Assembly (NCBI RefSeq): GCF_023195695.1
Contig: NZ_JALPQG010000003.1
Location: 186,001-250,000, forward strand
DNA length: 64,000 bases
Origin: Aliiroseovarius sp. S1339
GTDB lineage: Bacteria; Pseudomonadota; Alphaproteobacteria; Rhodobacterales; Rhodobacteraceae
Direction of reading: 5' to 3'
The position numbers and the translations under genes are program-made. Below the pieces are notes generated by a model. It made no database searches. It was not told the origin of the DNA and worked only from the letters and a program-made list of their open reading frames with translations. Below are positions 42,280-55,382 of the stretch, piece by piece; within the stretch, counting starts at the first letter, position 1; each line of letters opens with the position of its first letter.

Positions 42280-44673
42280 TTACTTTAGCGACGTGACGTT
42301 CCAAATGTCCTTTGCATATCCAAGGATCGTGCGATCCGACGAAAACCACCCCATGCCGGCGGTGTTCAGCGCGGCCATCTTGGTCCAGCCTTCAACATCC
42401 TGATAGGCGGTATCAACCTTGCGCTGAGCGTCGAAATAGCTGTCGTAATCACAGGTCACTAGGAAATAGTCGTGATCATACAAGTTGCGCAGCAGGCCTT
42501 GATAGCGGTCCCTGTCACCGCCAGAAAACACACCGTCGGCGATTTGACCCAGAACGCGGGTCAAACCGGGGCTTGCCTGAATGGCTTTGCGTGCGAAGTC
42601 AGGTTGTTTGCGGCGCTTCACCACCTCTTCTGCGGTTAGGCCAAACAGGAAGAAGTTGTCAGCCCCGACATGTTCACGAATTTCGACATTTGCGCCATCA
42701 AGCGTACCAATTGTCGGGCTGCCGTTCAGGGACAGCTTCATGTTGCCCGTGCCTGACGCTTCTTTCCCGGCCGTCGATATCTGCTCTGACAGATCAGAGG
42801 CTGGAATAAGCATCTCTGCCATTGAGACGTTGTAGTTCTCAGGAAAAACCACCTGTAGATAGTCGCGGGTTACCTTGTCAGTATTGATCGTCTTGGCCAC
42901 ATCGTTGATCAAATGGATGATGGATTTGGCCATCACATATCCCGGCGCCGCCTTGCCGCCGAACAGTTTGACCCTTGGGGTCCAGTTGCCATGCGGATTG
43001 TCGCGGATGTCATTCCACAAGGCGACCGTTTCCAGAATGTTCAAAAGTTGGCGCTTGTATTCATGGATGCGCTTAATCTGCACGTCGAACATGGCGTTGG
43101 GGTCAATAACCGTGCCGTCGCGGGTCTTCAGCCATGCCGCAAGTTGTTGCTTGTTTTGGGCCTTCGCCGCACGGAAACGTTCTTGAAAACTGGCGTCATT
43201 CACATGGTCGCGCAATTCGGTCAGTCGTTCCAGATCATCTGGCCACCCGTCGCCGATTGTCTCGTTGATCAGATTGCGCAGCGGGGGGTTGCACGAATAC
43301 AGCCAGCGGCGCGGCGTAACACCATTGGTCTGATTGATGATCCGGCCCGGATAGACTTTGTTCAGATCAGAAAACACCGTCTTCTTGACCAGATCAGAGT
43401 GAAGCGCTGAAACGCCATTGACGCAATGGGCCATGATAAACGCCAGCTCGCCCATCTTCACTTCGCCATCTTCGATGATCCGAATGTTGCTTCCGGAGAC
43501 AAAGGCGTGGGTGTCCTGGATCATCTCGATAATCCGGTGGTGGCGCGGCAGGATGCGGGCGAACAACCCCTCTGGCCAGCGCTCAAGCGCTTCGGGCAAA
43601 AGCGTGTGATTGGTAAACCCAAGGCAGGCGCGTGCCGTTTCAATCGCCTTGTCCATCGGCATGGCGTGAACATCGGCCAGAAGCCGCACCAGTTCAGGCC
43701 CCGCAATGGCCGGATGGGTGTCGTTCAGTTGGATCGCAACATGATCCGCCAGATCGTCCAGCGCATAGCCTTCAGAAATCAGACGCCGCAACACGTCCTG
43801 AATGGATGCGGAGGTGAAAAAATACTCCTGCTTCAGCCGAAGCTCTTTGCCTTTGTCGGTGGTATCATCAGGATAAAGCACGCGCGAGATTGTACGGGCG
43901 AGGCTTTCTGGGGCATTCGCCGCCAGATAGTCACCTCTGTTAAAGCTCTCAAGATCAAAGAGTTTTTGCGGTTTTGCCGCCCAAAGTCGCAAGGTATTGG
44001 CCCATTTGCCTTTCCAGCCAATGATCGGCGTATCATAGGCCGAGGCAAGGACGGTTTCGTCTGGATGCCAAATGGTTTTGCCCTTTGTCTCGCTGACATA
44101 GCCGCCAAATCCAATCGGATACGAAACCTCTGGACGCTCGAATTCCCACGCGTGGCGTTGTGACAGCCAACCCTCAGCAGCTTCGACCTGTTCGCCGTCC
44201 TTAAAATGTTGCTCAAATAACCCGTGCTCATATCGGATGCCATAGCCATAGGCCGGGATCGCGAGCGTTGACATGCTATCAAGAAAACACGCTGCAAGGC
44301 GGCCCAGCCCACCATTGCCCAAGGCGGCGTCCGGTTCATCTGCCACGACCCGCTCGTAGTCTTGCCCCAACGCTTCCATTGCGTCGCGTGCCAGATCTTC
44401 AATGCCCAGATTGATGGCAACATCTTCGATCAAGCGCCCGATCAGGAACTCCATCGAAAGGTAATAGACCCGCTTTGAGTTACGGTCATAGGTTTCGCGG
44501 GTCGAGGCGAACCAGGGATCAACCACCAGATCCCTCATTGTCAGCGACAAGGACATGCGCCAGTCATAGACCGAGGCATGTTCGGCGTCCTTGCCGAGCG
44601 AGGTCTTCAGGTGGCGGCAAATGCTGTCTTTGAACACATTTACATCGACATTTGTCAGGGCGTCTTTCGGCAT
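42280..44673 (-). CDS. glgP: Glycogen phosphorylase
   Basis: Releases glucose 1-phosphate from glycogen chain ends. 797 aa. The pyridoxal-phosphate lysine lies in EASGTGNMKLSLNGSPTIGT near residue 640; MEFLIGRLIEDVAINLGIED and GNGGLGRLAACFLDSMSTLA near the N terminus are hallmark segments. ATG 44673 gives the normal N terminus, with a weak purine stretch upstream; a frame extension to 44832 would reach into the kinase gene and has no support. It is followed by glgB after 44 bases. Confidence 0.96.
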   Translation of the reverse strand: MPKDALTNVDVNVFKDSICRHLKTSLGKDAEHASVYDWRMSLSLTMRDLVVDPWFASTRETYDRNSKRVYYLSMEFLIGRLIEDVAINLGIEDLARDAMEALGQDYERVVADEPDAALGNGGLGRLAACFLDSMSTLAIPAYGYGIRYEHGLFEQHFKDGEQVEAAEGWLSQRHAWEFERPEVSYPIGFGGYVSETKGKTIWHPDETVLASAYDTPIIGWKGKWANTLRLWAAKPQKLFDLESFNRGDYLAANAPESLARTISRVLYPDDTTDKGKELRLKQEYFFTSASIQDVLRRLISEGYALDDLADHVAIQLNDTHPAIAGPELVRLLADVHAMPMDKAIETARACLGFTNHTLLPEALERWPEGLFARILPRHHRIIEMIQDTHAFVSGSNIRIIEDGEVKMGELAFIMAHCVNGVSALHSDLVKKTVFSDLNKVYPGRIINQTNGVTPRRWLYSCNPPLRNLINETIGDGWPDDLERLTELRDHVNDASFQERFRAAKAQNKQQLAAWLKTRDGTVIDPNAMFDVQIKRIHEYKRQLLNILETVALWNDIRDNPHGNWTPRVKLFGGKAAPGYVMAKSIIHLINDVAKTINTDKVTRDYLQVVFPENYNVSMAEMLIPASDLSEQISTAGKEASGTGNMKLSLNGSPTIGTLDGANVEIREHVGADNFFLFGLTAEEVVKRRKQPDFARKAIQASPGLTRVLGQIADGVFSGGDRDRYQGLLRNLYDHDYFLVTCDYDSYFDAQRKVDTAYQDVEGWTKMAALNTAGMGWFSSDRTILGYAKDIWNVTSLK

Positions 44674-44752
44674 CACTATCGCTTTTCTGGGTTTTGGCAG
44701 CCTTACCATAAGGCGGCTACCAGGCGTCGGGTTGCAACTGCTTATTCTAGTG

Positions 44753-45682
44753 TCATTCGATCTCGTGCGCCCAAGGCGGGTTAGCGCCGGGTCGTGACAC
44801 GGTAATTGCGGCCACTTTGGCACCATGTTCAAGCGCGCGTGTCAGATCGCCTGCCTCTATTGTCTTGATGCGGCTTCGGTCCAGCAGATGATTGTTCGCC
44901 AGGTCCGCCAAAAATCCGGCGTTGAACGTGTCGCCAGCACCAACTGTATCCGCGACTTTGACCTTTTTAACCGCAACTTCCACCATTTTATCATCGCCAA
45001 AAAAGGCGCAAGCCCCGGCGCTTCCGCGTGTCAGAACCACCACTTCTGGTCCTCTTTCGCGCAAAGCCTTTGCTTTCTCGATCTGGGTCAGGGGTCCGGG
45101 AACGATCCAATCCAGATCCTCGTCGGATACTTTTAGGATGTCGACGCAGGCGATCAAGTTATCAAGCCGTGCGCGATATCGCTTTTCGTTCGAAATGAAG
45201 TTTGCCCGAATATTCGGGTCAGCAACGATGACACGGCGACGGGATTCGCGCATTGCGAGGGCAAGATAGAAATCTGCGGCAGGTTCATTGATCAGGCTGA
45301 TGCCACCAAAATACATCGCCTTCGCGGCCTGTGGGATGGTCGGCAAATCATTTGGGTCCAGCATTCTGCCAGCGGTGTTTTCGTCATAGAATACATACGT
45401 GGCATGCCCATCGGTCAGTTCGACGAAAGCCAAGGTCGTCGGGCGGTCAGAGAGTTGCACGAGGTCGGTGGCGACGTTACTTTTGTGCAGCTCGCCCAGA
45501 AGGATTTTTCCGAATAAGTCCGTCGAAATGCCGGATAAGAAGTCAGACCGAACGCCAAGGCGGCCCAGCGCAATGGCTGTGTTGAACACTGCCCCACCGG
45601 CATGCGGTTTGAAGGTTTGTTCGCCTGACCGATCAAGCGACGGGATCATATCAATCAAGGCTTCGCCACAACACACAATCAT
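44753..45682 (-). CDS. PfkB family carbohydrate kinase, probable fructokinase
   Basis: A 309-aa ribokinase-fold sugar kinase. N-terminal CGEALIDMIPS and KPHAGGAVFNTAIALGRLG match fructokinases of this family, and the C-terminal signature VADTVGAGDTFNAGFLADLA contains the catalytic Asp (residue 251) and anion hole. It heads the glycogen operon, 79 bases before glgP. A fructokinase there would feed hexose phosphate to the Pgm/GlgC route; the exact sugar is inferred and could be another hexose. Confidence 0.82.
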   Translation of the reverse strand: MIVCCGEALIDMIPSLDRSGEQTFKPHAGGAVFNTAIALGRLGVRSDFLSGISTDLFGKILLGELHKSNVATDLVQLSDRPTTLAFVELTDGHATYVFYDENTAGRMLDPNDLPTIPQAAKAMYFGGISLINEPAADFYLALAMRESRRRVIVADPNIRANFISNEKRYRARLDNLIACVDILKVSDEDLDWIVPGPLTQIEKAKALRERGPEVVVLTRGSAGACAFFGDDKMVEVAVKKVKVADTVGAGDTFNAGFLADLANNHLLDRSRIKTIEAGDLTRALEHGAKVAAITVSRPGANPPWAHEIE

Positions 45683-46026: not shown

Positions 46027-47193
46027 GTGCTTACACTTCTAAAAAACGCTCACATTTTTGCTCCAACCCCTATGGGGCTTGGTCATATTCTAACTGCTGG
46101 CGAAAAAATCGTCTATCTGGGTGCCGAACTGCCAGAGCTGGCGGCGCCCTTGGATGTTGCCGTGCATGACGTGGCCGGGGCAGCCGTTGTGCCGGGTTTC
46201 ATCGACGGTCACGCCCATATTACCGGGGGTGGCGGCGAAACCGGGCCGTCAAGCCGTGTACCGCCGATGGTTCTGTCGTCCTTCACGCGTGCGGGCGTGA
46301 CCTCGGTGGTTGGGGTGCTAGGAACCGACGACCTGACGCGCAACACGCAAACGCTGGTCACGCAGGCCTATGGTCTGCGCGAAGAAGGGTTGTCGGCGTG
46401 GTGTCATACGGGCGGCTATCACGTGCCTTTGACCACGCTGACGGGCTCAGCGCGCGGCGATATCGTCTTTCTGGATCCGGTGATCGGCGTGGGGGAGCTT
46501 GCGATCAGTGACCATCGCTCTAGCCAGCCGACGCTGGACGAGTTCATGCGCATCGCCAGTGAAGCGCATGTGGCGGGTCTGATGACCGGTAAGGCGGGGA
46601 TTGTGCATTGCCATATGGGTGATGGCGACCGTGGGCTGGCGATGTTGGAGCAGACGATCAAAACCTGCGAAATTCCGGCCCGTGTGTTCAACCCGACCCA
46701 TGTGAATCGCAACAAGCCGCTGTTTGATCAGGCTGTCGCGTTGGCGCGGCACGGCTGCTATATTGACGCGACCGCGTTTCCAGATGGGCATGTCGAACCC
46801 GGCATTTCTGCCGCTGACGCTTATTTGCAGTTCAAAGCTGCGGGTTGCCGGACGGATCGTTTCACCATCAGCTCTGACGGTGGCGGCTGTCTGCCCGCCT
46901 TTGATCGCGACGGCAATCTGACCCGTTTTGGTGTCGGCTTGTCACAAACATTGCCAGATACGTTGGCAGAGTTGGCGCGCGCAGGCGTTGAGTTGGGCGA
47001 AGCCCTAGCACCGCTGACCAGCAACGTGGCCGACCTGCTGAAGCTGCGCCAAAAAGGTCGACTGGCGGTCGGTATGGACGCCGATATTCTTGTGCTTGAA
47101 GCTGATCTGCGTGTGCGCGATGTCATGGCGCGCGGCGCATGGCATGTCCGCGACCACAATGCGGTTCGCTTGGGCACCTACGAAGAAATGTAA
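46027..47193 (+). CDS. iadA: Isoaspartyl dipeptidase (IadA family)
   Basis: Cuts beta-aspartyl dipeptides; next to cyanophycinase it would split beta-Asp-Arg, the product of cyanophycin breakdown, into Asp and Arg. The 388-aa amidohydrolase has metal ligands DGHAH (His62, His64), VHCHMGD (His196), NPTHVNR (His225) and SSDGGG (Asp284), plus GGGGETGPSSR with the substrate-binding Glu71 and Tyr131. Where the E. coli enzyme has a carbamylated Lys (GVK before AISDHR), this one has Glu157 (GVGELAISDHR). GTG 46027 is the start, with AGGG upstream. It is the first gene of the cyanophycin operon. Confidence 0.88.
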   Translation: MLTLLKNAHIFAPTPMGLGHILTAGEKIVYLGAELPELAAPLDVAVHDVAGAAVVPGFIDGHAHITGGGGETGPSSRVPPMVLSSFTRAGVTSVVGVLGTDDLTRNTQTLVTQAYGLREEGLSAWCHTGGYHVPLTTLTGSARGDIVFLDPVIGVGELAISDHRSSQPTLDEFMRIASEAHVAGLMTGKAGIVHCHMGDGDRGLAMLEQTIKTCEIPARVFNPTHVNRNKPLFDQAVALARHGCYIDATAFPDGHVEPGISAADAYLQFKAAGCRTDRFTISSDGGGCLPAFDRDGNLTRFGVGLSQTLPDTLAELARAGVELGEALAPLTSNVADLLKLRQKGRLAVGMDADILVLEADLRVRDVMARGAWHVRDHNAVRLGTYEEM

Positions 47194-47238
47194 GCCCCTT
47201 CGGGTCACGATAAAAATTAGAAAAGAAAGAACAGCAAC

Positions 47239-48114
47239 ATGTGCCCAGCACCAGTGTCAGAGGATTTAGACCGCGGATACATCATTCCCATTGGCGGGGG
47301 CGAGGATCGGGTCAAGGAAATGCAAATCCACCGGAAGTTCGTTGAGCTTTCGGGCGGAGAGGACGCGGATATTGTGGTCATTCCCACGGCCTCTATGCTG
47401 GAGAAAACAGGCCCGGACTATCACCGGATATTTTCTGATCTGGGGGCGGGTCAGGTCGAGTTCTTGCCAATCTCGCGCCGGGCAGACTGTGACAACCCTG
47501 ATTTTGCCGGGATGCTGGACCGGGCGACCGGCATATTCATGACCGGGGGTAATCAATTACGTCTGTCCGCCATTCTGGGCGGCACGCTGGTGGCGCAAAA
47601 GATTCGTCGTCGCAATGCAGAGGGCGTTCCGATTGCAGGCACCTCGGCCGGGGCATCGATCATGTCCGAGCACATGATCGCAGGGGGCAGCAGCAATTCG
47701 GGGCCAGCTGAAGGAAATATCACCTTGGCGCCCGGAATGGGGCTGACCAATGCGGTGATTATCGACCAGCACTTTACCCAGCGCAATCGGCTTGGCCGCT
47801 TGTTAACCGCCTCGTCTTACAACCCTTTTCTGATCGGGCTTGGGGTCGACGAAGATACGGCGGCCTTCATCGGGCCCGACAATGTGTTGGAGGTTGTGGG
47901 CAGCGGAACCGTGACGGTTGTTGATGCCAACCACCTGACTCATTCCTCAATGTGGGACGCGCGCGAGGGCGAGGCGATTAGCCTTCTGGGCCTTCGCCTT
48001 GACGTTCTTGGTGAAGGATGCCGTTATGATCTGATTGGACGCCTTGCTTATCCGCCGGATGAACACGTGGCGTTCTGCACCCTTCCGGTGCCAAATGACG
48101 CAGATAGCGCGTGA
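47239..48114 (+). CDS. cphB: Cyanophycinase
   Basis: Intracellular serine peptidase that degrades cyanophycin to beta-Asp-Arg dipeptides. 291 aa. GYIIPIGGGEDR near the N terminus, MTGGNQLRLSAILGGT at about 101-116, and the nucleophile elbow GTSAGAS (Ser136) are the family signatures; IDQHFTQRNRLGRLLTA follows. There is no signal peptide, unlike extracellular CphE. A weak AAGAAAGA ribosome site precedes the ATG. Gap of 45 bases from iadA and 37 bases to cphA. Confidence 0.93.
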   Translation: MCPAPVSEDLDRGYIIPIGGGEDRVKEMQIHRKFVELSGGEDADIVVIPTASMLEKTGPDYHRIFSDLGAGQVEFLPISRRADCDNPDFAGMLDRATGIFMTGGNQLRLSAILGGTLVAQKIRRRNAEGVPIAGTSAGASIMSEHMIAGGSSNSGPAEGNITLAPGMGLTNAVIIDQHFTQRNRLGRLLTASSYNPFLIGLGVDEDTAAFIGPDNVLEVVGSGTVTVVDANHLTHSSMWDAREGEAISLLGLRLDVLGEGCRYDLIGRLAYPPDEHVAFCTLPVPNDADSA

Positions 48115-48151
48115 GCCGGGGGAAATAACAAGCTTTCGAACGGGGGAACGC

Positions 48152-50953
48152 ATGAAGATAATCTCAACCAATGTATTTGTCGGCCCAAATGTCTGGGCAA
48201 GCTTTCCGGTCATCCGACACGTCATTGATTTGGGATTTCTCGAAAACTGGCCGTCGGCGAAAATCGGGCCCGACTATATTGATCACTTGGTCGAGGCGCT
48301 ACCCGGCCTAGAAGAACATGGCTGTTCCTATCGCGAGCCGGGAGGATTTATTCGCCGCCTGCGCGAGGATGAGGGCACTTGGCTGGGCCACGTTCTGGAA
48401 CATTGCGCGCTGGAAATTCAGGGCGTCGCCGGAACCGATGTGTCGTTCGGCCGTACCCGTTCGACCGGCGAGCCGGGCCACTACAACATGGTTTACCAAT
48501 ACCGCCAGCGCGATGTTGGGCTGGCTGCCGGGGAATTGGCGATCCGCCTGTTGATGCATCTGCTGCCGCAATCGCTGAAAGATCAGGCCGACTATAAATT
48601 CGATCCCGATTTCGACTGGGAAGATGAATTGCGCACCTTCGTCTTGCGTGCGCAGCGCAAGGAATTTGGCCCTTCAACCGGGTCGCTGGTCAAGGCCGCC
48701 GAAGAACGCGACATTCCGTGGATTCGCCTGAACGAACATTCATTGGTTCAGTTCGGCCATGGCAAATACCAAAAGCGTATTCAGGCCACGATCACCTCGG
48801 AAACCAAGCATATCGCCGTCGAGATTTCCTGCGACAAGGAAGACACCCACAACCTTCTGAACGATCTTGGCCTGCCCGTACCGCTTCAACGCATGGTCTA
48901 TAGCGAACGCGAAGCGATCCGCGCCGCGCGCAGCATTGGCCACCCGGTTGTCGTGAAGCCGCTGGACGCCAATCACGGACGCGGCGTGTCGATCAACCTC
49001 AATACCGACGAAGAAGTCGCCGCAGGCTTTGAAGAAGCCAAGCTGCATTCCAAAAGCCGCGCAATTCTGGTCGAAAGCTTTGTCACCGGGTTTGACCACC
49101 GGATGCTCGTGGTGAACAACAAGCTAGAAGCGGTTGCCAAGCGCGTTCCGGGCCACGTCATCGGAGATGGCAAAAACACAATCGCCGGGCTGGTCGATAT
49201 CGTAAACGAAGACCCGCGACGCGGTATTGGTCACGAAAAAGTACTGACCCATCTTGAGCTGGACACCCAGGCCAACAGGCTGCTGGCTGAGGCTGGGCAT
49301 GACGCCGAAACCGTGTTGCCCAAGGGCGAGGTGTTTTTCCTGCGTTCGACCGCCAACCTGTCAACTGGCGGCACCGCTATCGATATGACCGATGTGGTGC
49401 ATCCCGACAACCGCGACATGGCCGAACGTGCGATCAAAGCGGTCGGTCTGGATGTTGGCGGCGTCGATTTTCTGATTGATGACATCACCAAATCCTACAA
49501 GGAAATCGGCGGCGCGATCGTCGAGGTGAACGCAGCCCCCGGCTTCCGTATGCACGTGGCACCTTCAGAAGGGCAGCCGCGCGATGTCTCGGGCCGGGTG
49601 ATCGACATGTTGTTCCCGGTTGGCGAAGAAAGCCGCATTCCGATTGCTGCGATCACCGGGACCAACGGGAAAACGACGACCGCGCGGATGCTGGGCCATA
49701 TCATGAAGACCAGCGGAAAGGTCGTTGGCATGACCTCGACCGATGGGGTTTATGTGGACGGTAAACTGAGTGTCAAAGGTGACATGACCGGCCCGAAATC
49801 GGCGCAGATTGTATTGCGCGATCCATCGGTGGATTTTGCGGTGATGGAAACCGCGCGCGGCGGGTTGGTGCGGGCCGGGCTTGGATACAATCGCTCGGAC
49901 GTGGCGGCCTGTTTGAACGTGTCTGCTGATCACCTTGGTCTGGGCGGGATCGACACCGTCGAAGATCTGGCGGTCGTGAAACGCGTGGTGGTGGAAAGTG
50001 CCACTGACACGGCGGTCTTGAACGCAGACGATATCAACTGTTTGAAGATGGCCGATTATGCCGATGTCGAGACGATTTTCTACGTCACCACCAACCCGGC
50101 CCACACGCTTGTAAAAGAACACATCAAGGCCGGGGGCAAGGCGATCGTGCTGGAAAGCGGCATGAATGGCGACATGCTGACGATCTACGACCACGGGTTG
50201 CATATGCCCGTTCTGTGGTCGCATCTGATTCCCGCGGCGCTGGAAGGCAAGGCGATGTTCAACGTGCAAAACGCGATGTTCGCCGCCGCGATGGCCTATA
50301 GTTTTGGCGTTGATCTGGACAATATCCGTCATGGGTTGCGGACATTTGACACCAGCTATTTCCAAGCGCCGGGCCGAATGAACGTCTATGACGAATATCC
50401 GTTCAAGGTCATTCTGGACTACGCCCATAACCCGGCGGCGATCGGGGCTATGACCGGGTTGTCCGACCAACTTGACGTGAAGAACCGCCGTATTGTCGTG
50501 GCCGCCATGCCGGGGGATCGGCGTGACGAAGATATCATCGACAGCGCCCGGATATTGGCTGGACACTTTGACCACTACATCTGCAAGGCGGATGACCGAC
50601 GTCGCGGGCGCGGACCTGACGAAGTGCCCCAGATGATCAAGGCCGAACTGATGCGTCAAGGCGTGGCCGAAAGCGCGATCAGTGTCATTCCGGACGAGGT
50701 TGAAGCGGTGGACACCGGGCTTGAGATGGCTGAACCGGGCGATCTTTTGGTGATCCTTGGCGATGACAGCGCGCGGTGTTGGAAGCAGATCATCTATCAC
50801 AATGCGGACGAAGCCGGTGATGAGACGCACGCGACCACCACAACGCCGGCGACAGCGATAGAATTTGAAGAGATGTTCGAAACCCAACAAAAGCTGGTCC
50901 GCGATGAACGCGGCGTGCGCTTGGCGCGCGAAGTCTCCGAAGACGCTGATTGA
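48152..50953 (+). CDS. cphA: Cyanophycin synthetase (CphA1 type)
   Basis: Builds multi-L-arginyl-poly-L-aspartate without a ribosome. 933 aa in three parts: an N-terminal domain with LGHVLEHCALEIQ (His80, Glu83, His84), an ATP-grasp domain (about 220-490, HPVVVKPLDANHGRGVSI, VDFLIDDITKSYKEIGGAIV) that adds Asp, and a Mur-ligase domain (P-loop GTNGKTTT near residue 505, ETARGGLVR, SADHLG, DYAHNP) that adds Arg. Both ATP sites look intact, unlike CphA2. The His-x-x-Glu-His group matches the primer-making hydrolytic site reported for some CphA1. ATG 48152 has GGGGGAA upstream; the longer frame from 48035 would overlap cphB. Confidence 0.94.
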   Translation: MKIISTNVFVGPNVWASFPVIRHVIDLGFLENWPSAKIGPDYIDHLVEALPGLEEHGCSYREPGGFIRRLREDEGTWLGHVLEHCALEIQGVAGTDVSFGRTRSTGEPGHYNMVYQYRQRDVGLAAGELAIRLLMHLLPQSLKDQADYKFDPDFDWEDELRTFVLRAQRKEFGPSTGSLVKAAEERDIPWIRLNEHSLVQFGHGKYQKRIQATITSETKHIAVEISCDKEDTHNLLNDLGLPVPLQRMVYSEREAIRAARSIGHPVVVKPLDANHGRGVSINLNTDEEVAAGFEEAKLHSKSRAILVESFVTGFDHRMLVVNNKLEAVAKRVPGHVIGDGKNTIAGLVDIVNEDPRRGIGHEKVLTHLELDTQANRLLAEAGHDAETVLPKGEVFFLRSTANLSTGGTAIDMTDVVHPDNRDMAERAIKAVGLDVGGVDFLIDDITKSYKEIGGAIVEVNAAPGFRMHVAPSEGQPRDVSGRVIDMLFPVGEESRIPIAAITGTNGKTTTARMLGHIMKTSGKVVGMTSTDGVYVDGKLSVKGDMTGPKSAQIVLRDPSVDFAVMETARGGLVRAGLGYNRSDVAACLNVSADHLGLGGIDTVEDLAVVKRVVVESATDTAVLNADDINCLKMADYADVETIFYVTTNPAHTLVKEHIKAGGKAIVLESGMNGDMLTIYDHGLHMPVLWSHLIPAALEGKAMFNVQNAMFAAAMAYSFGVDLDNIRHGLRTFDTSYFQAPGRMNVYDEYPFKVILDYAHNPAAIGAMTGLSDQLDVKNRRIVVAAMPGDRRDEDIIDSARILAGHFDHYICKADDRRRGRGPDEVPQMIKAELMRQGVAESAISVIPDEVEAVDTGLEMAEPGDLLVILGDDSARCWKQIIYHNADEAGDETHATTTTPATAIEFEEMFETQQKLVRDERGVRLAREVSEDAD

Positions 50954-50967
50954 TCGGGGGGCGGGCG

Positions 50968-52701
50968 ATGGACCGGATCGAAGAACTGGAAAACGCGCTT
51001 GATATTCCCTGCGCGCAGTCGGACCATATTCGCGTGGATGATGTCCGCCGCCTGACCGGGCCGGGGCTTTTGTGGGATTATCCCGGCGCAGTGATCGACA
51101 TATTCTTTGAGGATGACAGCGGCGACCGCATCGTCGCTTTGTGGCAAACCCATGCCCGACGGGTGCTGGACGCGCTGGGCTGGCAAGCGCAACACCTCAC
51201 CTCGCGCCGGTTTCAGGGGGGCGTTAACCTCGCCATATCGGCGCCGATGGATCAGTTATATTCCTCAATCTTCGCGGCGCAGACGGCTTGGCATTTCTGC
51301 GCCGCTGATCTGCTGGGCGAGGCGCCCGGCGATTTCGACAGCAGGATCGCCGATGTCGCCGCCGTGATGGAGAAAGAGAAGAACCCGCCATTGATCGCGC
51401 TGATCGCCGCGGCGGATGCGCATGGTGTGGATATCCTGTGTGATGACGACGAAATTTCGATAGGGCATGGCATCGGTAGCAAGGTCTGGCCTGTGGATGC
51501 CCTGCCGCAACCAGATCAAGTCGATTGGGCCGCACTTCACGACGTGCCGATCGCGTTTATCACTGGCACCAATGGCAAAACTACGACCACCCGGCTGTGC
51601 GCCGCCATAGTCAAAGCGGCTGGCAAGGTTGGCGGCCTGACCTCGACCGATTTTGTGCGGGTGGGTGATGATATTCTGGATCGCGGGGATTATTCCGGGC
51701 CCGGCGGCGCGCGCATGTTGTTGCGCGACCCGCGGCTCGAGGTCGCCTGTCTTGAGGTGGCACGCGGCGGCATACTGCGCCGCGGATTGCCAACCAGACG
51801 CGCCCGCGTGGCCGTCGTGACAAATGTCGCCAATGACCATCTGGGGCAATACGGCGTGAACACGGTTCCGGAACTGGCGCAGGCGAAGTTTGCGGTGCAC
51901 AGGACGTTGGCCGAGGATGGTGTGCTGGTTCTGAACGCCGACGACGCCTTTGTCGTTGCTGAAGCCGCCAACACGGCGGCGACAATCTGGTGGGTGTCCT
52001 TGGACTCCGAAAACCTGCAGGTGAAAAGCGCCCGAGACAATGGCGATCCCTGCGCCTATTTGCGCGACGACGCGTTGGTATTCTTTGACGGACAGTCGGA
52101 ACAGGCGATGATTTCTGTGGCGGAGGTGCCGATCACGATGAACGGGGCCGCGAAATACAATGTCTCGAACGTGTTGGAAGCGATCTGTGCCGCGAAAGCA
52201 ATGGACCTGTCGGACGATGCCATCTGCAAGGGTTTGTCAACTTTCAGGCCTGATCCGAAGGACAACCCCGGTCGTTGCAACGAATTTGCACATAACGGCG
52301 CACGGGTGTTCGTGGATTTCGCCCACAACCCGCATTCGATTGCAGCGGTCTGCGAGGCCTTGTCGAGCCTGCCCGCCAAGCGCCGCTTCATCATGCTCAG
52401 CCACGCTGGCGACAGGTCGGATCAGGACATACAGGACCTGACTTTGACGGCCTTGCAATTTCAGCCAGACATTGTGGTTACCGCCGAACTGGCGGGCTAT
52501 CTGCGCGGTCGTGAACTGGGCGACGTGCCCAACTTGATTGAAAAAGCCGCCATTGGGGCGGGGTTAAGCGCGGACCAAATGCAAGGCGCCGATAGCCCAA
52601 CGCAGGGCGTGCGCATGATCATGGATCAGTTGCAACCAGGAGATCTGGCGTTGTTGCTTGTCTTGTCGGAACGCGATGAGGTGTTCGAACTTCTGGCATA
52701 G
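50968..52701 (+). CDS. Mur-ligase-domain protein related to CphA, lacking ATP-grasp
   Basis: A 577-aa protein 14 bases after cphA. Residues 1-190 form an unrecognised domain (EELENALDIPCAQSDHIRVD, PGLLWDYPGAVIDIFFEDDS, DDEISIGHGIGSKVWPVDAL). From 193 it is a Mur-ligase module close to that of CphA: P-loop GTNGKTTTTRL (200-210), GLTSTDFVR, LEVARGGILRRGL, VANDHLGQYGVN, DNPGRCNEF, VDFAHNPHSIAAV. All catalytic signatures are kept, so it is probably an active amide-bond ligase. The ATP-grasp domain that adds Asp is missing. It may add an amino acid to cyanophycin or to a related peptide; nothing in the sequence fixes the substrate. ATG 50968 is preferred over TTG 50950. Confidence 0.85.
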   Translation: MDRIEELENALDIPCAQSDHIRVDDVRRLTGPGLLWDYPGAVIDIFFEDDSGDRIVALWQTHARRVLDALGWQAQHLTSRRFQGGVNLAISAPMDQLYSSIFAAQTAWHFCAADLLGEAPGDFDSRIADVAAVMEKEKNPPLIALIAAADAHGVDILCDDDEISIGHGIGSKVWPVDALPQPDQVDWAALHDVPIAFITGTNGKTTTTRLCAAIVKAAGKVGGLTSTDFVRVGDDILDRGDYSGPGGARMLLRDPRLEVACLEVARGGILRRGLPTRRARVAVVTNVANDHLGQYGVNTVPELAQAKFAVHRTLAEDGVLVLNADDAFVVAEAANTAATIWWVSLDSENLQVKSARDNGDPCAYLRDDALVFFDGQSEQAMISVAEVPITMNGAAKYNVSNVLEAICAAKAMDLSDDAICKGLSTFRPDPKDNPGRCNEFAHNGARVFVDFAHNPHSIAAVCEALSSLPAKRRFIMLSHAGDRSDQDIQDLTLTALQFQPDIVVTAELAGYLRGRELGDVPNLIEKAAIGAGLSADQMQGADSPTQGVRMIMDQLQPGDLALLLVLSERDEVFELLA

Positions 52702-52731: not shown

Positions 52732-53562
52732 TTACCCGTCCAGAAATGCTCCGATAGTCACGCCCACATCGTGCCGTTGCGTGTACATCAGCAGGTGGCC
52801 AGCCGAATATACCTCTAACCGGGCGGATTGCATCATATTGGCCAACAAGATTTGGTTGGTGATCGGGATCAACGCGTCGTACTTCCCCGCAATGATCAGT
52901 GCTTTCTGCGGCAGGCTACGCAGCCATGGCAGACTGGTCCAGCTGCACATCGCGCGCACTTGCGAGAAATAGCCCTCTGGGCTGGGCGCGATGGCATGCT
53001 TGGAATACTCGCGGAAGTCGTCGGGCGCGAAGATCGCTTCGCCACCATACATCAGGGGGCCGATAAAGTTACCATAGGCTTTGCTCATATACCGCATGGG
53101 GAACATGATTTCGGACAGGGCGATCGGAGTGCCCCACCAACTGCCAATTCCGCCGGCCGAGGTGATGGCAAGCACCAGTTTGCGCACCCGGTCTGGTGCA
53201 TCAAAAGCCATTTGTTGCGCCAGTGAGCCGCCCCATGAAATGCCCAGGATGTCGAAACGGTCTATCTTGAGCTGATCCATAATCTGCATCGCGAAGGCAG
53301 CATAATCCGGGATCGTGGAGATGTCGTCGACCATCGGTGTGCGCCCGATACCCGGCATGTCAAACGCGACGACAGTGCGATCTTCCAACTCGTCAATCAG
53401 CGGCAAAAGCACTTCCATCGACTGGCCAAGCCCGTTGCAGACCAGCAAGGGCGGCTCGTCATTCGAGCCTTCGCGCAGCAGATACCGCACGAGCGTGTTG
53501 CCGATCTTGATGGCTTGAAATGTTATTTCGGGGTGCGGATTTTTGACGTTCAGATCTTTCAT
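52732..53562 (-). CDS. phaZ: Alpha/beta hydrolase, probable intracellular PHA depolymerase
   Basis: A 276-aa alpha/beta hydrolase that resembles the medium-chain-length PhaZ of pseudomonads: LLVCNGLGQSMEVLLPLIDE, VVAFDMPGIGRTP, DILGISWGGSLAQQMAFDAP (nucleophile Ser in GISWG), GPLMYGGEA, AMCSWTSLPWLRSLPQKALI, GKYDALIPITNQILL with the catalytic Asp, and a late His (SAGHLLMY). It starts 3 bases after phaC and is clearly cotranscribed with it. The PHA link rests on this similarity and context; other esterase roles remain possible. Confidence 0.8.
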   Translation of the reverse strand: MKDLNVKNPHPEITFQAIKIGNTLVRYLLREGSNDEPPLLVCNGLGQSMEVLLPLIDELEDRTVVAFDMPGIGRTPMVDDISTIPDYAAFAMQIMDQLKIDRFDILGISWGGSLAQQMAFDAPDRVRKLVLAITSAGGIGSWWGTPIALSEIMFPMRYMSKAYGNFIGPLMYGGEAIFAPDDFREYSKHAIAPSPEGYFSQVRAMCSWTSLPWLRSLPQKALIIAGKYDALIPITNQILLANMMQSARLEVYSAGHLLMYTQRHDVGVTIGAFLDG

Positions 53563-53565
53563 ATC

Positions 53566-55188
53566 CTACACGCCCTCCAGCACATAGGTGCCGGGTGCCG
53601 GGTCCATTGGCGTATAGGTTTTGTTGCCAAGCGCCTTCGGTTTGGGGCCGCGTTCGGCGGCGTTGTGGGTGTCGAGCCAGTCCAGCCAATGCGGCCACCA
53701 GCTGCCATCGGTCAGCTTAGCCGTCTCGTGCCAGTTGTCCGCATCCCCACCTGTTTTGCCGCCGGTCCAGAATTTGCGGCGGGTCTTAGCGGGGTGGTTG
53801 ATCACCGTGCCGGACACGTGCCCGCCGGTGGTCAGCACGAACTCGGTCGGGCCGGACACCAGCTTGGTCGCTGTAAAGGACGTTTTCCACGGCACGATAT
53901 GGTCGCCGTCGGCGGCAAGGAAATAGCACGGCAGGTCGATGTTATGCGTATCAACCGGGACGCCGCACAAGGTAAGCGCTCCGGGCTTTTTCAGCTTGTT
54001 CGCGATATACATTTCTTCAACGAAATAGCTGTACCATTTCGCCGGCAGGTTCGAGGTATCGGCGTTCCAATACAGCACATCGAACGGCGCAGGCGATTTG
54101 CCCATCAGGTAATTGGAGACGACGAAGTTCCAGATCGACTCGTTCACATGCAGCATCGCCATCGCATTGGCAATGTCGCGGCCCGGTGCGACTTTCTCGG
54201 CTTTCAGGCGTTGGTTATAGGCTTCGACCTGCGGCTGGTCGATGAACACCTTGATCTGACCCGGATCGGAAAAGTCGATCAGCGATGACAGGAATGTCGC
54301 GGTGCCCAGCTTGGCTTTCAGGTCCTTGGGCATCACCGCAAGGGCCGCCGTCAACATCGTGCCGCCATTGCACCAGCCCAAAATGTCGATCGCGTTGGAT
54401 TTGCTGACCGCGGATGTAACCTTCACCGCTTCAAATATCCCGTCTTCGATGTAATCATCCCAGCTGTGATCGCCCATCTCTGGCCCCGGATTGCGCCATG
54501 CGATGGTGTAAACGCTCTGCCCTTGTTCCAGCAGATAGCGGATCATCGACTTCTTTTCGTTCAGGTCAAAGATGTAGAATTTGTTGACGCAGGGTGGCAC
54601 GATCAGGATCGGCGCTTTGCGCGTCTTGGCAGTCATCGGCTCGTATTGGATCAGCTCGATCAATTCGTTGCGGAAGATCACCGAACCGGGGGTTGTGGCA
54701 AGGTTCTTGCCCACCTCGAACGCTTCTTCGTCGGTGGTGGAGATATAGCCCTTCTCAAGGTCCGCCAGAAGGTTTTGATAGCCATCAAGCAGGCTCTGCC
54801 CACCGGTTTCCTTGGCAAGCTGCTGGGCTTCGGGGTTGGTCAGTAGAAAGTTGGACGGCGCCATGTTGTCTGCTGCAACGCGGGCATAAAAGCTTAGTTT
54901 TTGCTGTTCTTGATCTGGCAAATTCGCCTTATCGGCCATATCAACCATGGCTTTGGCGGTCAGCTCGTAAGAATGGCGCAGGATTGGGAAAATCCCTTCA
55001 TCCCATGCCTCGGCCCCGAACCGGCGATCGCGCGTCTCATCGGCGGCGTCTTCACCATGCAGCGCAGTGCCCAGCCAAAGCTTTGCCATGTCGCTTTGGT
55101 ATCTCAGCATCGTGTTCGTCCACTCTGCAAAGGCGGGGCCTTCGGTTTTACTCATAGCTTCAAACAGCTTGAAGAGATCTTTGGACAT
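53566..55188 (-). CDS. phaC: Polyhydroxyalkanoate synthase, class I type
   Basis: Polymerises (R)-3-hydroxyacyl-CoA into storage polyester. 540 aa with the synthase signature DILGWCNGGTMLTAALAV (nucleophile Cys273 in G-W-C-N-G-G), FIDQPQVEAYNQ, NFVVSNYLMGK and the C-terminal GGHVSGTVINHPAKTRRKFW containing the catalytic His. The N-terminal half with VNKFYIFDLNEKKSMIRYLL and EQGQSVYTIAWRNPG is typical. The start ATG 55188 follows GGAAAGG. phaC and phaZ in one operon is less usual than the divergent or separate pattern. Confidence 0.94.
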   Translation of the reverse strand: MSKDLFKLFEAMSKTEGPAFAEWTNTMLRYQSDMAKLWLGTALHGEDAADETRDRRFGAEAWDEGIFPILRHSYELTAKAMVDMADKANLPDQEQQKLSFYARVAADNMAPSNFLLTNPEAQQLAKETGGQSLLDGYQNLLADLEKGYISTTDEEAFEVGKNLATTPGSVIFRNELIELIQYEPMTAKTRKAPILIVPPCVNKFYIFDLNEKKSMIRYLLEQGQSVYTIAWRNPGPEMGDHSWDDYIEDGIFEAVKVTSAVSKSNAIDILGWCNGGTMLTAALAVMPKDLKAKLGTATFLSSLIDFSDPGQIKVFIDQPQVEAYNQRLKAEKVAPGRDIANAMAMLHVNESIWNFVVSNYLMGKSPAPFDVLYWNADTSNLPAKWYSYFVEEMYIANKLKKPGALTLCGVPVDTHNIDLPCYFLAADGDHIVPWKTSFTATKLVSGPTEFVLTTGGHVSGTVINHPAKTRRKFWTGGKTGGDADNWHETAKLTDGSWWPHWLDWLDTHNAAERGPKPKALGNKTYTPMDPAPGTYVLEGV

Positions 55189-55382
55189 GTTCCGCGCCTT
55201 TCCGGTTTCGAAGCGTTCGCGTGCGACCCTCTCAGCGAAATGCTTCACGAATTTTGCAAGCACCGCGATTGCACGCAGTTTTTTGTAGCAGTGGAAGGGA
55301 AAATAAAGAAGCAGGTCGCACAAATAGTGCGGTGCTGCCTGACCTGACGTCGGCGCAAAGGTGTTGCGATATTTGAGAGAAA

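Follow-up and report, generated by a model that had tools for sequence, protein, structure and literature searches.

The cyanophycin synthetase gene cphA of Aliiroseovarius sp. S1339 is followed directly by a gene for a second protein of the CphA family, a Mur-type ligase that has the N and M (Mur ligase) domains and lacks the G (ATP-grasp) domain of a complete CphA (referred to as the helper in the rest of the text). Both genes lie in the 64,000-nucleotide stretch of contig NZ_JALPQG010000003.1 analysed here (the window). The helper retains the catalytic residues of the M domain, it co-occurs with cphA in other genomes, and the CphAs that it accompanies carry a C-terminal arm ending in aspartate. 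We tentatively propose that the helper works with the CphA encoded upstream, loading an amino acid onto the Asp at the end of the CphA tail and thereby making a built-in primer, a reading to which we give somewhat less than an even chance.

A Mur-type ligase of the CphA lineage

Translation of the open reading frame (ORF) at 50968-52701 (+) gives 577 aa followed by a stop codon. A preliminary description of the window, made from the sequence alone, had placed this gene 14 bases after cphA and listed four Mur-ligase motifs. Both points are borne out: the cphA stop codon occupies 50951-50953 and the helper ATG is at 50968, the bases between them including a G-rich stretch that resembles a Shine-Dalgarno sequence, and GTNGKTTT, VARGGILRR, NDHLG and DFAHNP lie at residues 200-207, 264-272, 289-293 and 450-455, respectively. 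A Pfam search of the helper found Mur_ligase_M (residues 198-409), Mur_ligase_C (435-563) and none of the ATP-grasp families. The top NCBIfam model is TIGR02068, cyanophycin synthetase (354.7 bits, E 9.5e-106, residues 191-565), of which the helper covers only profile positions 477-848 at a score below the curated whole-protein cut-off of 850. Among PDB sequences the five best matches are CphA1 chains (E 3.5e-57 to 4.5e-54), and MurF comes next at 2.3e-13. The TIGR02068 match, together with 62 alignment columns that are invariant in 87 helper relatives, puts the family assignment far beyond chance. A close match to an enzyme of unrelated role, which the preliminary description had named as a refuting outcome, did not turn up; the matches to MurE, FolC and other models are much weaker, and murE, murF and folC stay below their curated cut-offs (93.3 vs 257.3, 63.8 vs 288.6 and 47.1 vs 162.65, respectively). 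MurE and the other Mur ligases also differ from the helper in their N domain, and the helper is far closer in sequence to CphA and is tied to cphA.

The residues invariant in all 87 relatives include N202, K204, E263, D290, H291, K307, R436 and H453. Five of them (N202, K204, E263, R436 and H453) align to TeCphA1 Asn497, Lys499, Glu558, Arg731 and His748, residues that bind ATP or Mg according to passages of PMC9427784, and D290/H291 align to the D585/H586 pair of SuCphA1, a change of which inactivates the M domain (passages of PMC9262961). In a structure alignment of the 577 residues with CphA1 chains of about 870 residues, no counterpart of the CphA1 G core was found in the helper, and the alignment shows one large gap. 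The view of the gene as a catalytically complete Mur-type ligase without an ATP-grasp half is supported, and so is its place in the CphA lineage.

The preliminary description had also reported an unrecognised N domain of 190 residues. It is indeed blank in Pfam, which finds no family in the first 190 residues; PF18921 matches 0 of 21 helper relatives, and querying Pfam and the PDB sequences with just the N region gave nothing useful, a DUF4938 match (E 6.8e-6) appearing in one of the 21 relatives with Pfam. The region is nonetheless recognisable as the N domain of a CphA, followed by the beginning of a G domain. Aligned globally with hhalign to the N regions of non-partner CphAs, it gave a probability of 93.4 (P 3.7e-8), while controls, among them a CphB profile of 16 sequences, reached at most 3.4, and the structure alignment to CphA1 begins at residue 21. 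A new domain is ruled out by these two comparisons. The metallopeptidase-like Cx19HxxEH signature that most CphA1s have in this domain was not recovered, as residues 1-196 of the helper contain no HxxEH and none is conserved among its relatives. The N region is strongly acidic, with a mean net charge of -16.7 over 103 relatives.

The helper thus resembles CphA1 (SuCphA1 7LGQ, TeCphA1 7WAE) in its N and M fold, in the catalytic residues of M and in sharing an operon with cphB, and differs from it in lacking the G domain and Cx19HxxEH, in its GDRSD donor loop (GDRRD in CphA1) and GDYSGPGGAR segment (GD.[ST]GP..A in CphA1), and in having a full CphA alongside. Cyanobacterial CphA2, compared here by its description and not by its sequence, is likewise a CphA relative that depends on a single ligase site out of two, but the site it uses is that of the opposite half, G. 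This contrast had been drawn in the preliminary description and holds in passages of PMC10206079 and PMC9262961: CphA2 repolymerises beta-Asp-Arg with a single (G) site (PMC10206079), and it combines an active G with an inactive M domain, whereas the helper has no G domain and intact M residues.

Pairing with cphA and the C-terminal arm of the partner

Full-length matches of helper type were present in 4 of the 21 genomes of the genus, its own included, and in 4/387, 21/390 and 7/397 genomes of the class, order and phylum samples, which overlap. A scan of named genomes returned at least 551 stretches encoding such proteins, and loci were counted from the best 80. These belong to Alphaproteobacteria (e.g. 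Ruegeria, Roseovarius, Kordiimonas, Sphingomonadaceae and Mesorhizobium) and Gammaproteobacteria (Halieaceae, Shewanella, Paraglaciecola and others), a few being in records titled only Proteobacteria or Pseudomonadota. The preliminary description had asked whether the pairing with cphA extends outside this species, and it does: cphA lies directly upstream in 79 of the 80 loci, the single locus without it being a contig of 3,260 bases, and cphB and iadA are found in 74 and 23 of them, respectively. From a set of 31 loci, 28 closed ORFs were retained (L012, L023 and L025 were dropped).

The presence of the helper also follows the type of CphA. Among the 34 genomes of the order sample that encode CphA, the 21 bearing a helper are exactly those with the 21 best CphA scores; CphA tails were read for 9 of the 13 others. 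On plasmids, 4 of 20 records with CphA also have the helper, precisely those whose CphA aligns to residue 933, and the alignment ends at residue 884 or earlier in the 16 helper-less ones. In RefSeq the plasmid copies carry the name 'Mur ligase family protein'. A Deinococcus protein of the same name (plasmid NZ_CP083456.1, H24) matches CphA residues 416-884 only and is perhaps another shortened CphA relative. In the order of genome G1103, partner-type CphA occurs in 59 of 170 genomes, and at 30 loci drawn from these 59 the helper stands just downstream of cphA in 29 cases. The thirtieth genome, G1277 (L241), has cphA and the helper on separate contigs, with a NUDIX-like frame, judged by eye, after cphA; its CphA tail keeps the Asp. 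Helper and CphA distances are correlated (r 0.90 over 65 pairs; 0 of 1000 permutations as high), a correlation that shared descent alone would produce.

The partner CphAs share an arm that the preliminary description had missed, consisting of a linker, the RDERGVRLAR motif and a final E-[D/E]-[A/G/S]-Asp-COOH. For its analysis 113 loci were examined, of which 108 were left after exclusion of one without a cphA ORF (L104) and four without a helper ORF by pattern (L107, L135, L140 and L146), giving 93 distinct tails. Asp is the last residue in 92 of them (GAT in 56, GAC in 36), Glu stands at -4 in 91, an RGVRL-type motif is found in 92, and in 79 the RG lies at a distance of 14 from the end. The sole tail without terminal Asp (L139) comes from a cphA frame with an N run and without a normal end. 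Over 92 tails, positional entropy falls to 0.00 bits at -1 and 0.09 at -4, lies between 0.6 and 1.0 for -9 to -14 and for -16, and mostly exceeds 3 in the linker, whose length ranges from 37 to 65 residues. Other proteins from the same loci end in Asp far less often (8/88 helpers, 7/76 CphBs). In the order of G1103, 29 of the 30 CphA loci have terminal Asp, and the exception (L240) reads E-E-A-D followed by GGA where the stop is expected; two of these 30, from G1103 and G1082, are also among the 113 loci above.

Of 41 CphA frames without a helper, one ends in Asp (L207, from Deinococcus, lacking the motif) and two have the motif (L198 and L199). The latter are from a single genus and lack the terminal Asp, the tail ends being TSDERGVRLVPDV in G755 and VSDDRGVRLVATG in G1125; a whole-genome profile search of both found only the M domain of CphA and no helper. 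At these loci (L177/L198 and L199) a cyanophycinase-like frame, recognised by eye, occupies the place of the helper downstream of cphA. Overlap with a ribosome-binding site is unlikely to account for the conservation of the E-D-A-D end, because in the window the G-rich stretch lies inside the 14-base gap, both Asp codons are used, and Asp is retained in all 8 gaps of at least 25 bases, L139 excepted.

A tree of 74 M domains, including those of 18 helpers and 18 partner CphAs, unites the helpers in a single clade (100/99) and groups the partners with L198 and L199 (100/97). The two clades are not sisters, their deeper join is weak (89/36) and long branches are flagged. The tree therefore indicates that the pairing of helper and CphA is old and that the tail counts are not independent events. 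A recent duplication of the partner cphA is not supported, since helper M domains stand apart from the partner clade, the deeper join being weak. Genome G106 (L212:3939-8244) has a second pair of another kind, a 660-aa frame with a CphA-like N region and an M domain, reading TTRGG for ARGG, beside an early-ending CphA-like frame of 829 aa; in the tree the 660-aa protein sits with the CphA of L029, away from the helper clade.

A possible role in priming and its alternatives

Passages of PMC9427784 describe the CphA1 M domain as binding a chain whose C-terminal Asp is still free of Arg. Since the M domain accepts a C-terminal Asp, a protein ending in free Asp is chemically the same as that acceptor, and the conservation of an Asp end on the tail points to CphA itself as the acceptor. 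The charges would suit docking, the N region of the helper being acidic and the tail motif basic. We infer a route with priming as its purpose, in which the N region would hold the RDERGVRLAR motif and the E-[D/E]-[A/G/S]-Asp end would reach the active site of the helper. There the Mur site, using ATP, would activate the side-chain carboxylate of the C-terminal Asp and join an amino acid, probably Arg, to it, with ligation proceeding as in the CphA1 M domain. If Arg is the donor, this would yield a beta-Asp-Arg attached to the protein, and the G domain of CphA would then add Asp to it, giving protein-(beta-Asp-Arg)-Asp; the smallest primer reported in passages of PMC9262961 is (beta-Asp-Arg)-Asp. 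Cyanophycin would then be a protein-primed storage polypeptide, growing on the tail of its own synthetase after a Mur ligase has modified the side chain of the C-terminal Asp, which we regard as possible though rather doubtful.

Several points weigh against this proposal. All of the 65 partners inspected keep the metallopeptidase-like C58, H80, E83 and H84, a site that makes primers in other CphA1s by peptide cutting (passages of PMC9262961), so a second source of primers looks unnecessary. One genus has kept the RGVRL motif in the absence of the helper, so that the motif is not for the helper alone, and G755 and G1125, being of that one genus, count only once. As the tailed CphAs all belong to one clade, the tail and helper counts amount to few independent events. 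The donor side also differs in a comparison of M domains from 104 helpers, 74 partners and 35 others: where CphA has a GDRRD loop the helper has GDRSD, and positions constant in each group but different between helper and CphA include S484/R791, P500/D807, P544/E849 and F451/Y757, so that D807 and E849 of CphA are both Pro in the helper. Judged from these residues, the donor may be an amino acid other than Arg. AlphaFold gave a weak model of CphA (predicted local distance difference test (pLDDT) 72.2, predicted template modelling score (pTM) 0.54), with pLDDT below 50 in linker 872-909 and the last six residues and near 70 in the motif region; the disordered linker and poor model mean that the tail is not placeable. 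Lastly, the helper could bind the terminal Asp and leave it unmodified.

The helper might instead be a second side-chain ligase for the polymer, docking on the CphA tail and adding Arg or another residue, e.g. Lys, to the C-terminal Asp of growing cyanophycin, thereby altering rate or composition, with the tail Asp as a pseudo-substrate that anchors it. We hold this to be a possibility, albeit a questionable one. The intact CphA-type M and N domains agree with it, the acidic N region fits Arg-rich ligands, and S484, P500 and P544, constant yet unlike CphA, are as expected for another donor; however, the M domain of the partner CphA is already complete, and docking alone leaves unexplained both the terminal Asp of 92 of the 93 tails and its absence from the two helper-less tailed CphAs. 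A mainly structural or regulatory helper, bound to the tail in or beside the CphA tetramer, where ATP turnover would serve as a switch in the control of assembly, attachment to granules or activity, would accord with the fixed pairing, the correlated divergence and the conserved tail motif with its disordered linker. We consider it unlikely, because the whole ATP and catalytic set is among the 62 invariant columns and a scaffold needs none of it, and because CphA2, in passages of PMC10206079, is a member of the family that lost its unused half.

A helper whose product is a separate small peptide, made or modified by it, for instance in beta-Asp-Arg recycling or by ligation of some other substrate, with the tail as an unrelated trait of the clade, seems improbable to us. 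Tail and helper do occur in one CphA clade, where shared descent could yield much of the correlation, and the frequencies of cphB and iadA (74 and 23 of the best 80 loci) would fit such a role, but G755 and G1125 keep the motif yet lack both the terminal Asp and the helper, and the last residue is unvaried where the linker is variable. A displaced housekeeping ligase (MurE, MurF or FolC), for which speak the shared Mur fold and the weak matches to these models, was rejected on the model scores and has a negligible chance of being correct: the 354.7 bits of TIGR02068 compare with 96.8 bits for the best NCBIfam model other than CphA, the helper is always tied to cphA, and a profile search of its own genome found seven Mur_ligase_M loci, five of them besides the helper and cphA.

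Modification of the CphA tail by the helper would have partial counterparts. Glycogenin is the self-priming starter of glycogen, and the likeness would lie in a protein residue bearing the first unit of a storage polymer; glycogenin is unrelated in protein and chemistry, and here the polymerase would bear the start of the chain on its own C-terminus, put there by a separate ligase. RimK-type ligases extend protein C-termini, which is similar in the ATP-dependent addition of an amino acid at a C-terminal residue, but they are ATP-grasp enzymes acting on the alpha-carboxylate, whereas the helper would use a Mur fold and the side-chain carboxylate. How a cyanophycin chain starts is a live question, the published answer being the primer-cutting peptidase of the N domain (passages of PMC9262961). 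In a widespread proteobacterial group a second, ATP-dependent protein adjoins CphA together with a near-invariant tail end. If the tail is a substrate, the synthetase would be primed and possibly polymer-bound, the modification would be new for a protein, and the tail would offer a handle for tethering or tuning the biopolymer; should the helper instead target the polymer, this may account for the composition of its side chains. Protein priming, if true, would start a non-ribosomal polypeptide in the manner of glycogenin and would be the work of a Mur-fold enzyme acting on a protein. Either way, a gene so far called only 'Mur ligase family protein' gains a testable role. Our search of the open PMC literature found no description of the helper gene or of the CphA tail; the gene may appear under a different name in the supplementary tree of 'cyanophycin ligase-like proteins' of PMC3646047.

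The operon and its surroundings

The helper is the last gene of an apparent iadA-cphB-cphA-mur operon that begins with iadA. The coordinates of its genes and features are given below.

Features of the cyanophycin operon in the window (bits are NCBIfam scores against curated cut-offs)
Feature	Position	Strand	Remarks
iadA, isoaspartyl dipeptidase	46027..47193	+	TIGR01975 401.8 bits vs cut-off 331.25
cphB, cyanophycinase	47239..48114	+	TIGR02069 255.8 bits vs cut-off 126.6
cphA, partner cyanophycin synthetase, 933 aa, N-G-M	48152..50953	+	TIGR02068 1132 bits vs cut-off 850
cphA tail motif RDERGVRLAR, CphA residues 917-926	50900..50929	+	
cphA C-terminal E-D-A-D	50939..50950	+	Asp933 codon GAT 50948-50950; proposed acceptor
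Helper, Mur-only CphA paralogue, N + M domains, without G (ATP-grasp) domain, 577 aa	50968..52701	+	
CphA-type N domain and start of G domain, helper residues 21-196	51028..51555	+	hhalign, structure alignment
Mur ligase (M) domain, helper residues 197-577	51556..52698	+	Pfam, invariant residues

Three storage-polymer systems adjoin one another between 42280 and 55323. A glycogen-type phosphorylase gene (42280-44832, -) precedes the cyanophycin operon (46027-52701, +), which is followed by genes for a polyhydroxyalkanoate (PHA) depolymerase-like protein (52732-53562, -) and a PHA synthase-like protein (53566-55323, -), both matches being below the curated cut-offs.
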